Shown piece by piece: positions 3,558-7,919 of a stretch of 8,546 bases of DNA. The stretch comes from a bacterium. GTDB taxonomy: Bacteria; Patescibacteriota; Doudnabacteria; UBA920. Position 1 is the stretch's first letter, and each line of letters opens with the position of its first letter. Location of the stretch: positions 1-8,546 of the forward strand of contig JAJYJE010000036.1 in NCBI GenBank assembly GCA_021789715.1, in the 5' to 3' direction. The notes beneath the pieces were generated by a model, which made no database searches, was not told where the DNA came from, and saw nothing but the letters and a program-made list of their open reading frames with translations. Made by a program: the position numbers and the translations under genes.

Positions 3558-3576
3558 GGAGAGAACCGGTTTTTTT
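3543..3576 (+). terminator. Intrinsic terminator overlapping the end of the small gene
   Basis: ACCGGTTCTC (3543-3552) pairs perfectly with GAGAACCGGT (3561-3570) around an 8-base loop and is followed by a run of seven T (3570-3576). The TAA stop of the upstream gene (3555-3557) lies in the loop. The T-run overlaps the leuS stop codon on the opposite strand. There is no U-tract on the minus strand, so it acts for the plus strand only. Confidence 0.9.
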
Positions 3577-6421
3577 ATACTACCAAATTAATCAATCTAT
3601 CGGCCACAAAAATAGCGCGTTTAACTGGACTGCCGCCAATACTGTTAATAACGGCCGGCATTGCCAAAGCCGCCTGCCTGACCGCCGCTTCACCGCTGCC
3701 GGTCGGCAGCGCAATTTTTCCCCTGACCTTGCCGTTAACCTGGACAATGAACTCCGTAGTTGCGTCAATAATCATTTTCGGATCGTAAACCGGCCAGGGC
3801 TCCAGCTGCAAAGATTTCTTGCCGCCCAACAGCTGATTCAGCTCTTCGCAAATATGAGGCGCGAATGGATACAGCAATTTCAAAAAAATTTTAACCGTCT
3901 TAACCGAGACCTCTGCATCCTTAACCTGGTTATGGAATTCCATGAAACTGGATATGGCGGTGTTGAAACTGAAATTTTCGATATCTTCCGTAATCTTCTT
4001 GATCAACTTGTGAAGAGCCCTGGTTACCGATTCCGAATCTTTCAATCTTTTAGTCTTTAAATCTTTAAATTTATTATTTCCCCACCCCCACACCCGGTCT
4101 AAAAACCTCCGAATACCCACAATGCCCTGAGTTTGCCAGGGCTTGGCGTCTTCCAGCGGTCCCATAAACATTTCGTACATCCGCAAAGAATCCGCGCCGA
4201 ATTCTTTTACCACGTCATCCGGATTTATCACATTACCGCGGCTTTTGCTCATCTTTTCTCCGTCCGGTCCTAAGATTAACCCCTGATTGCGCAGCTTCAA
4301 GAATGGCTCGCCAAAATTCAAATAGCCAAAATCACGCAATGCTTTGGTAAAAAACCGGGAATAAAGCAAGTGCAAAACCGCGTGCTCGGCGCCGCCAACA
4401 TAAACATCAACGGGCAGCCATTTATGCATTTTCTGTTTGCCGGCAAAGACTTTTTTATCTTTAGAGTCGGTGTAGCGCAAAAAATACCAGGACGAGTCGA
4501 CGAACGTATCCATTGTATCGTAATCTCGCTCAGCCGCTCCTTTGCAATTCGGACAAGCAACTTTTCTAAATTGCTTCGACCGCTTAAGCGGCGATTCGCC
4601 GGTCGGGCGAAAATCCACATCTGTGGGCAATTTAACCGGCAAGTCCTTTTCCGGCACCGGCTGCATCCCGCATTTTTCGCAGTAGATAATGGGAATCGGC
4701 GCGCCCCAGTAGCGCTGGCGGGATACCAGCCAGTCGCGCAGTTTATATTTGGTGGTAAGCTTGCCGAATTTAGATCCGATTTTTTCGATCGCATCTTCGG
4801 ATTTAAGGCCGGTGAACTCGCCGGAATCAATCAGCGCGCCATAATTGACGGCCGCCTGTTCTTTGCCGGCTACCCGCTCCCAAAAAACCGGATCAGCCAA
4901 ACCCGTCCCAATAGCCTGGCTGACTTTTTCTTTGGCCAGCCATTCGCAGACATGCTTTTGTTCTTCTTCGGCCGCCACGCCAATCTGTCGGCCGCTTCTT
5001 AGCTCCACATAAAAACCCGATTGCGTATCTAATCGGTTCTGTTTTTTTAAAGGAGCGAAAAATTTGACCGTAACCGCCCCGAGCGGCCTGACCACGGCGG
5101 CATCAACATAACCAGTTTCCTCTTTAATCTCCCGCAACACGGCTTGCTCCGGCAATTCGCCAGATTCCGCGCCGCCGCTGACAAAAGCATGGCGGTCGCC
5201 GTCAAGCCATTTTAAAACCAAATATTCATCTTTTTCCCAATGCTTAATAACTGCGCGGACCACCGCGCGCTCCATTGCCGGTTCGTTTTCATGGAATGCC
5301 AACGGTCCCTCCTTTGTCACCAAAAGCGGGGCCACAACCTGTTTAATCGGCAATGCAAACTTCTTGGCGAACTCAAAATCCCGCTCGTCGTGGGCAGGCA
5401 CGGCCATAATCGCTCCGGTGCCATAGCCGGTAATTACGTAATCGGCGATCCATACCGGAATTTCTTGGGCCGTGGCGGGATTAATCGCCTTCAAACCTTT
5501 CAATTCAACACCGGTTTTTTCTTTTTCCAGTTGTGTGCGCTGCAATTCCGATTTCTTTTTGGTCGCCTCGATGTATTTTTGAACTTCATCCCAATTTTCA
5601 ATTTTCAATTTAAAATTTTCAATTGCTCCATGCTCAGGCGCCAAAACCATATACGTCGCTCCGAATAGCGTATCTGGCCTAGTCGTGAATACCTTAATAC
5701 TTACTTCGTGATCCTTGATTCTAAAATCTATTTCCGCTCCCTGGCTCTTGCCGATCCAATTCCGCTGCATCAGCTTTATCGGCTCCGGCCAGTCAAGCTT
5801 ATCTAAATCTGACAATAATTCTTCGGCGTAATCGGTAATCTTAAAGAACCATTGCGATAACAATTTTTGTATAACCACCGTGCCGCAGCGCTCGCACTTA
5901 CCATCCGCTACCTGCTCATTGGCCAAAACCGTATTATCCTTGGGGCACCAGTTTACATAAGCTTCCTTTTTGTAGGCCAAACCCTGCTTATAAAACTGCA
6001 AAAACAGCCACTGGGTCCACTTATAGTAGTCTGGCGAAGAAGTGTTGACTTCCCTGCTCCAGTCGTACGAAAGACCCAGCGACTGGATTTGCTGGCGGAA
6101 ACGCTTGATGTTCTTTTGTGTAGTCTTTTGAGGATGCACGCCCTCTTTAATCGCATAATTCTCGGCAGGCAAACCAAATGCATCCCAGCCCATGGGGTGC
6201 AGAACGTTATCACCTTTCATTCGGCGGAAACGCGATAAAATATCGGTGGCCGTGTAACCTTCCGGATGGCCCACATGCAACCCTGCGCCCGAAGGATACG
6301 GGAACATATCTAAGATATATTTTTTAGGCTTTTTCCCGCTATCTTTCGTCTGAAAAGTTTTATGCGCAAGCCAATATTTCTGCCAATTCTTTTCGATTTT
6401 CTGATGGCTGTACTTGTTCAT
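3575..6421 (-). CDS. leuS: Leucyl-tRNA synthetase with an internal Nudix domain
   Basis: This class Ia synthetase charges tRNA-Leu in the cytosol. It has 948 residues, longer than the roughly 860 usual for bacteria. Visible in order: the HIGH-type motif HVGH (49-52) after PYPSG; Cys pairs near 159-179; the CP1 editing domain with TTRPDTLFGAT (246-256), GYGTGAIMAVPAHDERD (332-348); a Nudix insertion (about 380-510); SGEFTGL (533-539); LRDWLVSRQRYWGAPIP (561-577); a zinc-knuckle-like CEKC/CPNC (581-584, 623-626); DTFVDSSWYFLRY (638-650); KMSKS (723-727); the helical anticodon domain; and the C-terminal domain with VNGKVRGKI (895-903). Two micro-repeat segments lie at residues 267-276 and 785-795. 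The ATG at 6421 has no Shine-Dalgarno sequence; TATAAT on the minus strand (6446-6451) lies 24 bases upstream without a good -35. Confidence 0.98.
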   Translation of the reverse strand: MNKYSHQKIEKNWQKYWLAHKTFQTKDSGKKPKKYILDMFPYPSGAGLHVGHPEGYTATDILSRFRRMKGDNVLHPMGWDAFGLPAENYAIKEGVHPQKTTQKNIKRFRQQIQSLGLSYDWSREVNTSSPDYYKWTQWLFLQFYKQGLAYKKEAYVNWCPKDNTVLANEQVADGKCERCGTVVIQKLLSQWFFKITDYAEELLSDLDKLDWPEPIKLMQRNWIGKSQGAEIDFRIKDHEVSIKVFTTRPDTLFGATYMVLAPEHGAIENFKLKIENWDEVQKYIEATKKKSELQRTQLEKEKTGVELKGLKAINPATAQEIPVWIADYVITGYGTGAIMAVPAHDERDFEFAKKFALPIKQVVAPLLVTKEGPLAFHENEPAMERAVVRAVIKHWEKDEYLVLKWLDGDRHAFVSGGAESGELPEQAVLREIKEETGYVDAAVVRPLGAVTVKFFAPLKKQNRLDTQSGFYVELRSGRQIGVAAEEEQKHVCEWLAKEKVSQAIGTGLADPVFWERVAGKEQAAVNYGALIDSGEFTGLKSEDAIEKIGSKFGKLTTKYKLRDWLVSRQRYWGAPIPIIYCEKCGMQPVPEKDLPVKLPTDVDFRPTGESPLKRSKQFRKVACPNCKGAAERDYDTMDTFVDSSWYFLRYTDSKDKKVFAGKQKMHKWLPVDVYVGGAEHAVLHLLYSRFFTKALRDFGYLNFGEPFLKLRNQGLILGPDGEKMSKSRGNVINPDDVVKEFGADSLRMYEMFMGPLEDAKPWQTQGIVGIRRFLDRVWGWGNNKFKDLKTKRLKDSESVTRALHKLIKKITEDIENFSFNTAISSFMEFHNQVKDAEVSVKTVKIFLKLLYPFAPHICEELNQLLGGKKSLQLEPWPVYDPKMIIDATTEFIVQVNGKVRGKIALPTGSGEAAVRQAALAMPAVINSIGGSPVKRAIFVADRLINLVV
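4038..4069 (-). repeat. Octamer tandem array inside leuS
   Basis: On the minus strand four 8-bp units follow each other: TTTAAAGA, TTTAAAGA, CTAAAAGA, TTGAAAGA. They encode the charged segment FKDLKTKRLKD (785-795) in the helical anticodon-binding part, an area that is not conserved in LeuRS. Confidence 0.75.
4892..5284 (-). other. Nudix hydrolase domain inserted within LeuRS
   Basis: These are residues about 380-510 of LeuRS. The Nudix signature G-x5-E-x7-R-E-U-x-E-E-x-G-U is fully met: G416, E422, R430, E431, I432, E434, E435, G437, Y438. It is preceded by the strands expected for the fold (VVRAVIKHW, EYLVLKW). The catalytic metal-binding glutamates are all present, so the domain is probably active. 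The segment sits between PIKQVV and the LeuRS motif NSGEF-like DSGEFTGL, where ordinary LeuRS has a short linker in the distal part of the editing domain. The substrate is unknown. Confidence 0.9.
5589..5623 (-). repeat. Heptamer tandem array inside leuS
   Basis: On the minus strand five 7-bp units run ATTGAAA, ATTTTAA, ATTGAAA, ATTGAAA, ATTGGGA (the last degenerate). They encode IENFKLKIENW (267-277) in a loop of the CP1 editing domain. The period is 7, so the three exact copies fall in different codon phases. Confidence 0.75.
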
Positions 6422-6480: not shown

Positions 6481-6781
6481 GCCATTGAAACGCCTGATGC
6501 AGGAATTGGGGAACGCGATCAACGATTCGCTTTCCGAATCGGACCGGATTGCGGAAGCGATCGGTGAAATCAAGCGCGCCGGGTACGATGTTTTCCTGGT
6601 GCTTGAGGCCACCATTGGCTTTAATAGGCGGGAAACGAACGGGGAAGAGGAAGAAGCAGACGAACAGATTCAGAAAGAAAATTGCACCTTTGAGGCGACT
6701 GGCAAAATCAAATTCACAAGCCAGGACCACCGCTTCCTGCGAGCGCTGAAGATCGCCGTAGATGATGATAATAATCGCTAA
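6473..6781 (+). CDS. Small acidic conserved-looking hypothetical protein (102 aa)
   Basis: The function is unknown. The N-terminal half (MEEPLKRLMQELGNAINDSL, then about 20 residues rich in Glu/Ile/Arg, then GYDVFLVLEATIGF at 37-50) looks like one compact alpha/beta domain. A very acidic stretch (about 55-64, EEEEADEQ) and a short C-terminal part ending DDDNNR follow. From memory the first 50 residues resemble a small hypothetical family in Acidobacteria-like genomes; I could not verify this. There is no signal peptide or membrane helix. It has its own promoter and RBS, is divergent from leuS and convergent with tatD. Its TAA (6779-6781) overlaps the tatD TAG (6778-6780). Confidence 0.85.
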   Translation: MEEPLKRLMQELGNAINDSLSESDRIAEAIGEIKRAGYDVFLVLEATIGFNRRETNGEEEEADEQIQKENCTFEATGKIKFTSQDHRFLRALKIAVDDDNNR

Positions 6782-7638
6782 AGCCGGAACAGCCGGCGGG
6801 CGTTCTCTGTCGTCCGCGCCGCGATCTCCTCTACGCTCACGCCCTTTAATTCGGCTACCTTGCCGGCCACGTATTGCACGTAGGCCGGCTCATTTCTTTT
6901 GCCGCGGTTCGGCACCGGCGTCAAATAAGGACAATCGGTTTCCAGTAGTATTCTATCAAGCGGAACCATTTTTACCAACTGCTCCATATTTCCGGTCTTG
7001 TCGAACGTGGTTATACCGTTAAAACTCACATAAGCCCCGCGATCGAGAAATTTTTGCAGCGCCTGAGGACTGCCGGTAAAGCTATGGATTTCAAAACGCA
7101 AGGGCTGAGGGCTGAGGGCTGAGGGCTGATTATTTTCCTCATCCAAAATCCCCAGCAAATCATCATACAGCGACTCGTCGCCTTTGGCCGGACGGCTGTG
7201 GATTACCAAAACTTTATCAAGCTCTTTGGCCAGGCGCAACTGGGCGCGGAACGCGTCGCGCTGTTTTTGCTTGATGGGTTCAGAGTCTTGAACCTCAGGA
7301 AGCCGATAATAATCCAGCCCGCACTCCCCTATGCCAACCACTTTGGGGTCGAGGGCTAATTTTTTATATGCATCATAATCAAAAACTTCCTCGCGGGTTT
7401 TAAAATGCGTCTCTTCCTCATCCACAAACTGCGAATGAGTATGCTCGGGATGCAAGCCGACCACGGCGTAGACGCCGGATGCAAATTGGTTGGCCAATTC
7501 CACTGTCTGGCGGGAGGTGTCGATCTGCGATCCGACGTTGATGACTTGAATACCACTCTCTAAAGCCCGCTGCAAAACCTCTTTTGCATCGTCCTTAAAA
7601 GCGCGAAAATTTACATGGGCGTGGGTGTCTATCAGCAT
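6778..7638 (-). CDS. tatD: TatD-family metal-dependent hydrolase (DNase-like)
   Basis: This cytosolic TIM-barrel enzyme belongs to the family of 3'-5' DNases and D-aminoacyl-tRNA-deacylase-like hydrolases (TatD/YcfH/YabD). It has 286 residues, with all metal ligands visible: H6 and H8 (DTHAHVNF), E105 (GIGECGLDYYR), H147 (VIHSRP), H185 (EIHSFTGS) and D235 (LLETDCPYLTPVPNRGKRNEP). The frame stays open upstream to 7893. The start at 7638 is chosen because the family begins at M-(L/I)-(I/F)-DTH and the upstream part is non-homologous and overlaps an opposing gene. There is no Shine-Dalgarno sequence; TACAAT ends 12 bases before the ATG. A heptamer array encodes QPSALSPQPL (171-180). The gene lies downstream of metG on the same strand, a linkage also known in Firmicutes (metS-yabD). 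Confidence 0.95.
   Translation of the reverse strand: MLIDTHAHVNFRAFKDDAKEVLQRALESGIQVINVGSQIDTSRQTVELANQFASGVYAVVGLHPEHTHSQFVDEEETHFKTREEVFDYDAYKKLALDPKVVGIGECGLDYYRLPEVQDSEPIKQKQRDAFRAQLRLAKELDKVLVIHSRPAKGDESLYDDLLGILDEENNQPSALSPQPLRFEIHSFTGSPQALQKFLDRGAYVSFNGITTFDKTGNMEQLVKMVPLDRILLETDCPYLTPVPNRGKRNEPAYVQYVAGKVAELKGVSVEEIAARTTENARRLFRL
6782..6796. terminator. Weak hairpin at the convergent gene ends
   Basis: GCCGG (6782-6786) pairs with CCGGC (6792-6796) around a 5-base loop. There is no T-run on the plus strand and only TTT on the minus strand. It lies within the last codons of tatD, just after the stop of the 6473 gene. It may slow polymerase but is not a convincing terminator. Confidence 0.3.
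7102..7129. repeat. Perfect heptamer GGGCTGA x4 inside tatD
   Basis: Four identical 7-bp units (7102-7108, 7109-7115, 7116-7122, 7123-7129) are followed directly by non-repeated sequence. On the coding strand (TCAGCCC) they give SALSPQP-type residues in a loop between DEENN and LRFEIHSF. Gain or loss of one unit would shift the tatD frame. Confidence 0.95.
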
Positions 7639-7691
7639 ATGGACAAAACAATTGTAAATTGATAAACTTAAAAAACTTTGCGCCATAATTT

Positions 7692-7709
7692 CTGGGGCGC
7701 GCGCTCCAG
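7692..7709. promoter_or_regulatory. GC-rich imperfect palindrome upstream of the 7746 gene
   Basis: CTGGGGC pairs with GCTCCAG (one G-U or mismatch) around a self-complementary GCGC centre. It lies about 37 bases before the start of the small plus-strand gene and about 55 bases before the divergent tatD start. An operator or leader hairpin is possible. No clear promoter was found beside it. Confidence 0.3.
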
Positions 7710-7734
7710 CGTTAACCTCCCCCGATAGACTACT

Positions 7735-7739
7735 AGGAG
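7735..7739 (+). promoter_or_regulatory. Shine-Dalgarno sequence of the GTG-started small gene
   Basis: AGGAG (7735-7739) is placed 6 bases before the GTG at 7746. This is the main evidence for choosing GTG over the internal ATGs at 7788 and 7800, which have no such site. Confidence 0.7.
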
Positions 7740-7745
7740 CAAAAA

Positions 7746-7919
7746 GTGTCCGACGACCAAAGCAAGAAGAGGACAACCGGGCCCGCAATGAGGCCCCCCA
7801 TGGATCCGCCCAACCCGGCAACGCCACGTTCAGCGTTACCTTTCCGCAAGCCGCTACATCCGACAGTGCCCAAGAGGGGCATGGCGCCCCCAATGGATCC
7901 GCCCAACCCCGCTGCCTAA
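7746..7919 (+). CDS. Small proline-rich repeat protein (57 aa), GTG start
   Basis: I do not recognise this protein. It starts (V/M)SDDQSKKRTTGPAMRPPMD and is basic, Pro-rich and probably disordered, with no membrane segment or cysteine. The motif PPMDPPNPA occurs twice, at residues 17-25 and 48-56. The two DNA copies differ at three of 27 bases, all at third codon positions and all synonymous, which argues strongly for selection on the peptide. It is preceded by AGGAG at proper spacing and followed by a structured region and a terminator. It lies in the metG-tatD junction on the opposite strand. Proline-rich linear motifs usually bind partner proteins, but no partner can be named. Confidence 0.75.
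   Translation: MSDDQSKKRTTGPAMRPPMDPPNPATPRSALPFRKPLHPTVPKRGMAPPMDPPNPAA
7794..7913 (+). repeat. Two 27-bp direct repeats within the proline-rich gene
   Basis: The copies are 7794-7820 and 7887-7913, 93 bp (31 codons) apart, with 24 of 27 identical bases. Both include ATGGATCCGCCCAACCC. Confidence 0.9.

Follow-up and report, generated by a model that had tools for sequence, protein, structure and literature searches.

Leucyl-tRNA synthetase (LeuRS) is an essential and closely studied enzyme that proofreads its product in the CP1 editing domain. In the window, which designates here the whole stretch of 8,546 nucleotides that was analysed, the leuS gene encodes a LeuRS whose editing domain is split by a complete Nudix domain. 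How did such a domain come to lie in this protein, is it still an enzyme, and is its activity linked to the chemistry of its host? The reading that we favour, with somewhat more belief than doubt, is that the nested Nudix domain would be an active and autonomous hydrolase, lodged in a part of the LeuRS editing domain that serves repeatedly as a socket; it draws on sequence comparisons and on a predicted structure. According to this reading, the domain (residues 368-520) would be a Mg2+-dependent hydrolase, predicted to be active and to work on its own, independently of the editing site, probably on dinucleoside polyphosphates such as Ap4A or on similar nucleotides. The synthetase would keep charging and proofreading alongside it, and the loop concerned, together with a few other loops of class Ia synthetases, would serve as sockets for whole small enzymes riding on an essential protein.

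The leuS gene and its nested domain

The minus strand of the window carries, in order, the end of MetRS, TatD, LeuRS, an MFS transporter and serine hydroxymethyltransferase. The LeuRS is the only one found in the source assembly (completeness 78%) and scores 1065.2 bits against the NCBIfam full-length equivalog TIGR00396 (leuS_bact), well above the cut-off of 548.4. The features used below are the following.

3575..6421, minus strand: leuS, leucyl-tRNA synthetase with nested Nudix domain (948-aa open reading frame; TIGR00396, PF00293 and Thermus thermophilus alignment)
5324..5764, minus strand: CP1 editing domain ahead of the insert, residues 220-366 (Pfam PF13603, profile positions 1-143 of 185)
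within 5324..5764, minus strand: editing motifs TTRPDT (residues 246-251) and AHDERD (residues 343-348), from conserved motif residues
5699..5716, minus strand: site A, residues 236-241, empty in the window and occupied by an alpha/beta hydrolase in relatives
4862..5320, minus strand: the insert, at site B, residues 368-520 (alignments to insert-free LeuRS and to T. thermophilus LeuRS)
4922..5194, minus strand: NUDIX PF00293 match, residues 410-500 (40.3 bits; predicted fold with pLDDT of about 90 over residues 380-510)
5108..5176, minus strand: Nudix box, residues 416-438, with predicted catalytic E431, E434 and E435 (read from the sequence)
5055..5057, minus strand: F455, an aromatic residue 17 residues past the box, at the ApnA-type X-loop position (alignment of 62 domains)

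A sequence-only reading of the window had placed a Nudix domain in the LeuRS editing region, at 4892-5284, which corresponds to residues 380-510. The domain search bears this out, with a PF00293 match (E 3.9e-10) that exceeds the curated gathering cut-off of 21.1 bits. The perfect Nudix box with all catalytic glutamates that this reading had described is also exact, as GGAESGELPEQAVLREIKEETGY at residues 416-438 matches the pattern GX5EX7REUXEEXGU printed in PMC10148737. The insertion had been located between two named motifs of the editing domain, and the alignments agree. The match to T. thermophilus LeuRS ends at residue 364 and restarts at residue 521, and the multiple alignment with insert-free LeuRS gives borders at 368 and 520. 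The length of the excess, put at about 90 residues, has to be corrected: the insertion spans about 153 aa. The protein as a whole is lengthened by less, since a stretch of about 57 residues present in T. thermophilus LeuRS (580-636), which we take to be the leucine-specific domain, is absent from the window protein between residues 718 and 723.

The fold of residues 380-510 had been proposed as a test of the assignment. In the AlphaFold2 model of the window LeuRS (alignment of 24 proteins, mean pLDDT 88.9), this segment is predicted with a pLDDT of about 90 and its secondary-structure elements follow the order generally expected of a Nudix fold; a non-Nudix fold did not appear. A structure search with the full-length model returned LeuRS chains and one ValRS chain as the best 50 matches listed; no Nudix chain was among these 50, and since the query was the full-length model this says nothing about the nested domain. 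The word-limited protein search found two close full-length relatives of the window LeuRS besides itself. Protein P0002 (1150 aa, 78% identical to the window LeuRS) shares the Nudix domain and has, in addition, an alpha/beta hydrolase at about 240-420, the latter being among the less certain regions of its model (mean pLDDT 84.0). Protein P0003 is a LeuRS with two Nudix domains at a different site.

Recurrence in the phylum and in the class

The insert was sought in a sample of 379 genomes of the phylum, in 355 of which leuS was detected, with a profile built from 22 inserts and a threshold of E 1e-10. The profile matched 79 of the 379 genomes and, in 51 of them, the match lay within a frame of at least 640 aa. 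Matches in shorter frames reached E 5e-18 at best, with the exception of two genomes, G006 (a complete domain) and G111 (122 aa with an internal stop). The host of the long-frame domain was read in 41 of the 51 genomes and was LeuRS in 39, including the window genome (G000) as well as G014, G021 and G026, ValRS in one and IleRS in one. Nudix was found at site B in 38 of these 39 LeuRS. One of them (G318) has a second copy at site A, and the remaining protein (G277) has its Nudix domain only near residue 210. Named relatives bearing the insert include Moranbacteria, Nomurabacteria, Taylorbacteria and Parcubacteria, so that the guess that related insertions exist in other LeuRS of the candidate phyla radiation proved right. 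These names also point to Patescibacteria as the phylum of the window. Outside the phylum, the five genomes behind loci titled Bacteroidetes, Flavobacteriales, Helicobacteraceae, Flavobacterium and Vicingus gave no fused match to the profile and two of them gave weak free-standing matches. An assembly chimera was considered as the source of the nested domain and rejected, because independent genomes repeat the identical insertion at the identical site. For annotators, this means that a long LeuRS with extra Pfam matches in these genomes is real and not a chimeric assembly.

The window's class comprises 49 genomes, 47 of which have a LeuRS match, and the 46 loci besides the window's own (L063-L108) were examined. 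In 27 of the 46, site A (after residue 239) is occupied by an alpha/beta hydrolase; these loci include L063, which combines it with a site-B Nudix, and the fragment L096. Site-B Nudix alone was observed in three loci (L070, L091, L102). Other occupants of site B, in one locus each, are an alpha/beta hydrolase (L071) and a methyltransferase (L099), and one further locus (L072) has a site-A insert lacking a clear Pfam match. Nine full-length proteins of 784-823 aa are without any insert of 30 aa or more, seven of which served, together with L084, as the insert-free reference, so that the emptiness of this set is partly by definition. The remainder consists of L084, with a 39-aa insert only, two partial proteins (L085, L106) and a masked one (L064). 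The existence of insert-free LeuRS in the same class (9 of 46) indicates that the insert is dispensable. Within the window's own genus, site B of G001 is free of Nudix and the hydrolase sits at its site A.

Other cargo, other sites and other synthetases

The Nudix domain is only one of several enzymes nested in LeuRS. Serine hydrolase and alpha/beta hydrolase domains (Ser_hydrolase/Abhydrolase in Pfam) are found at site A, at site B in L071 and at core residue 429 or so in L141. Pfam also recognises Ham1p_like domains in L032 and, at lower score, in L138, HAD_2 domains in L043, L138 and L145, a methyltransferase in L099 and a nucleotidyltransferase-like domain in L138. The last of these loci encodes a LeuRS of 1795 aa. 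Its site A is filled by a HAD and a HAM1-like domain and its site B by a Nudix domain, and the nucleotidyltransferase-like domain lies farther along the chain; an additional segment at about core residue 430 has a weak HAM1-like match in NCBIfam and none in Pfam. The inserts of L037 (site A), L072, L100 (site B) and L148 (site A) are without clear Pfam match. In the same way, other class Ia synthetases are hosts: L137 (2141-6772) encodes an IleRS of 1544 aa with Ser_hydrolase, Nudix and His-phosphatase domains, and L135 a ValRS of 883 aa with Nudix. The variety of enzymes at the same and at other LeuRS sites, along with the presence of Nudix in ValRS and IleRS, argues against a leucine-specific role.

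A wider picture can be drawn, which we hold tentatively and would place slightly on the doubtful side. The class Ia editing synthetases of Patescibacteria, mostly LeuRS and also IleRS and ValRS, might be enzyme carriers in which a few fixed sockets in or near the editing domain repeatedly take in, swap and let go of small enzymes that are whole and catalytically intact (Nudix, serine hydrolase, HAD, HAM1, His-phosphatase, methyltransferase, nucleotidyltransferase). The largest load, in a LeuRS of 1795 aa, amounts to four additional domains that are recognised and a fifth that is weak. The essential gene would then act as a protein-level operon in reduced genomes, and the Nudix cargo would limit the nucleotide by-products of charging.

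At the start of the site-A insert, the palindromic intergenic-repeat motifs GTCATTCC and GGAATCCAG were observed in frame in four of the ten loci examined, both of them in L063 and L100 and one each in L042 and L079. The same motifs and their complements also occur in frame within TatD (L105:835-1196). Such in-frame motifs in LeuRS and TatD are reminiscent of the Rickettsia palindromic elements. At site A they are a possible trace of how such loops acquire DNA.

Substrate clues

In the PDB, the 22-insert profile has its best match in lupin Ap4A hydrolase (E 2.9e-7). AvrM14 comes next, and the dihydroneopterin triphosphate and diphosphoinositol polyphosphate enzymes rank lower. An NCBIfam RppH model matches 21 of the 22 profile members far under its cut-off, and the window insert, at 25.1 bits at best against a cut-off of 118, falls outside this equivalog. 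An aromatic residue is present 17 residues past the box, at the spacing of the known ApnA motif, in 56 of the 62 domains aligned (Tyr in 33, Phe in 23), the window domain having Phe (F455). A Tyr in the X-loop region downstream of the box marks ApnA hydrolases (PMC5389931). Aminoacyl-tRNA synthetases rank among the main producers of Ap4A, which Nudix enzymes break down (PMC10148737), and ApnA is for this reason the most economical guess. Taken together, these sequence clues do no more than suggest an ApnA/RppH-like substrate class. They lend weak support to the proposal of the sequence-only reading that the domain removes Ap4A, the tie to LeuRS chemistry that went with it being disfavoured; removal of an adenylate by-product found no support in this analysis, Nudix enzymes being hydrolases of NDP-X compounds.

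The domain could be bound to its host more closely if it destroyed Ap4A or related by-products arising at the synthetic site of the same LeuRS. The origin of Ap4A in synthetases, its degradation by Nudix enzymes and the ApnA-like hints, i.e. the lupin hydrolase match and the aromatic residue at the X-loop position, are what one would expect in this case; however, a Nudix domain is also housed by ValRS and IleRS, unrelated enzymes occupy the identical site and nine of the 46 class loci are insert-free. Such a self-cleaning synthetase is, in our estimation, unlikely, and the autonomous hydrolase is the preferred reading. Whether a synthetase carries its own clean-up activity can be tested directly on this system, as can the way in which proteins gain nested enzymes.

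Signs of catalysis

Among 62 distinct Nudix domains borne by synthetases, the first catalytic glutamate is retained in 62, the second in 60 and the third in 61. The full box is present in 46, the E..EE core in 13 and a broken core in three (the first copy of L109, L114 and L138). The boxes of relatives are thus not consistently degraded, an outcome that had been named as an argument against catalysis. The nested Nudix domain is likely to be catalytically active, judging from these residues. A comparable retention was observed in the other main cargo, as the nucleophile Ser and the His are present in all 30 aligned alpha/beta hydrolase inserts and the Asp in 28 of them. On the side of the host, H49, H52 and K723-K726 of the HIGH and KMSKS signatures, as well as T246, R248, T251 and D345 of the editing site, are invariant in the 24 aligned proteins, and therefore the insert does not replace editing.

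These counts also bear on a purely structural explanation, in which the Nudix fold would stiffen or extend CP1, or contact the tRNA, with no enzymatic role. It would suit a location within the domain that handles the tRNA end, and three broken boxes among 62 are compatible with it, yet a scaffold need not retain metal-binding glutamates in 60 to 62 of 62 sequences and LeuRS of the same class manage without any insert. We consider this explanation improbable and retain that of an active hydrolase.

Selection on the insert

The dN/dS of the insert ranges from 0.042 to 0.232 in seven of ten chosen pairs, the other three being saturated, and that of the remaining LeuRS protein from 0.087 to 0.116 in six pairs. 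The insert pairs are not independent because six of the seven draw on only four sequences. In the testable cases, selection holds the Nudix domain about as strongly as LeuRS, since the two sets of values are close. The idea of a degraded insert is refuted by these values (0.04-0.23) and by the glutamates kept in 62, 60 and 61 of the 62 domains. A tolerated passenger, that is DNA lodged in permissive surface loops of LeuRS with cargo devoid of selected function, would account for the several sites, the many domain families, the variation of cargo within one genus and the palindromic repeats at the site-A junction of four of ten loci, but it is very improbable against purifying selection roughly as strong as on LeuRS and catalytic residues retained in both Nudix and alpha/beta hydrolases.

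Recombination at the level of the domain was also examined, as the inserts looked far more alike than the downstream LeuRS. It was rejected when segment checks showed this to be largely misalignment around other inserts. There remains a dS that is lower for the insert than for the other parts of the protein in all six pairs computable for both (e.g. 0.60 versus 0.95), five of which share four sequences; this is a weak hint of domain-level recombination.

Origin of the insert

A midpoint-rooted tree was built from 80 of 81 Nudix domains, one free domain from L137 being omitted. A branch with support 98/93 splits it into groups of 58 and 22 rows. The larger group contains LeuRS copies from site A, site B and near residue 210, the ValRS copy and two non-fused domains (complete in G006, broken in G111). 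In the smaller one, five LeuRS copies from site B and the IleRS copy are grouped with 16 generic free Nudix proteins. A single acquisition followed by simple vertical descent is not sustained, given that LeuRS site-B copies lie on both sides of the branch. This topology makes two or more captures at site B likely, provisionally so since some of the 22 rows are long-branched. More generally, the tree agrees with a domain that was captured repeatedly, moved between sites and was released at least once. No free-standing donor of the window insert was found at E 1e-3.

In G006, a complete free-standing Nudix of the LeuRS-insert kind (L105:1580-2128) begins 8 bases past TatD, the LeuRS of the same genome being without insert. 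Over 152 residues this protein shares 57% identity with a Moranbacteria LeuRS insert, and it sits within the synthetase-borne clade (97/67 with one copy), which favours its descent from a LeuRS-borne domain. That it is the remnant of an eroded old leuS was rejected as the main reading, as the same-genus G007 has TatD beside an insert-free LeuRS of the same type and no such gene in that stretch. In G111, a short Nudix frame of the LeuRS-insert kind (L136:3009-3374) has a stop within the profile match.

Relation to known systems

The window protein shares with bacterial LeuRS (TIGR00396, CP1 PF13603) the host protein itself, both signature motifs and the editing residues. It differs in that its editing domain is split by Nudix and about 57 T. 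thermophilus residues are missing. The insert resembles Ap4A hydrolase, RppH and DIPP Nudix enzymes in its predicted fold, its exact box and its closest solved structures, whereas it is nested in a synthetase and scores under every NCBIfam cut-off listed. A curated precedent for an enzyme domain within a class Ia synthetase is the model named IleRS plus N-acetyltransferase (NCBIfam NF040702), with a different host and a different cargo; no paper on this type of IleRS was found in the open-licence literature searched. A 2026 study of inserted modules describes the LeuRS editing domain as always a guest, with zero host events in 213 (PMC13114784), while the same PF13603 domain is itself the host in the window LeuRS. 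In the accessible portions of the open-licence literature searched, neither LeuRS nor any CPR synthetase was described with a Nudix or other enzyme nested in it. The parts are known; what had no description there is that they are nested, that this recurs and that the cargo changes at fixed sites. What makes them matter is that an essential protein hosts active-looking hydrolases at repeated sites across many bacteria with reduced genomes.

Neighbourhood of leuS

Several observations concern the surroundings of the gene. A tRNA-Leu (CAA) lies at 237-321 on the plus strand of the window, about 3.3 kb from the end of leuS and on the opposite strand. The TatD reading frame, listed as 6778-7893, probably has an over-long N-terminus because its Pfam match begins only at residue 88 of 371. 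Finally, over its C-terminal half the window LeuRS shares 78% identity with the LeuRS of G025 (L063), a genome of another family, and only 59% with that of the same-genus G001 (L008). An MFS gene of similar size and sequence nevertheless follows leuS in both the window genome and G001, and given these identities despite the common neighbour, leuS may have been replaced in place.
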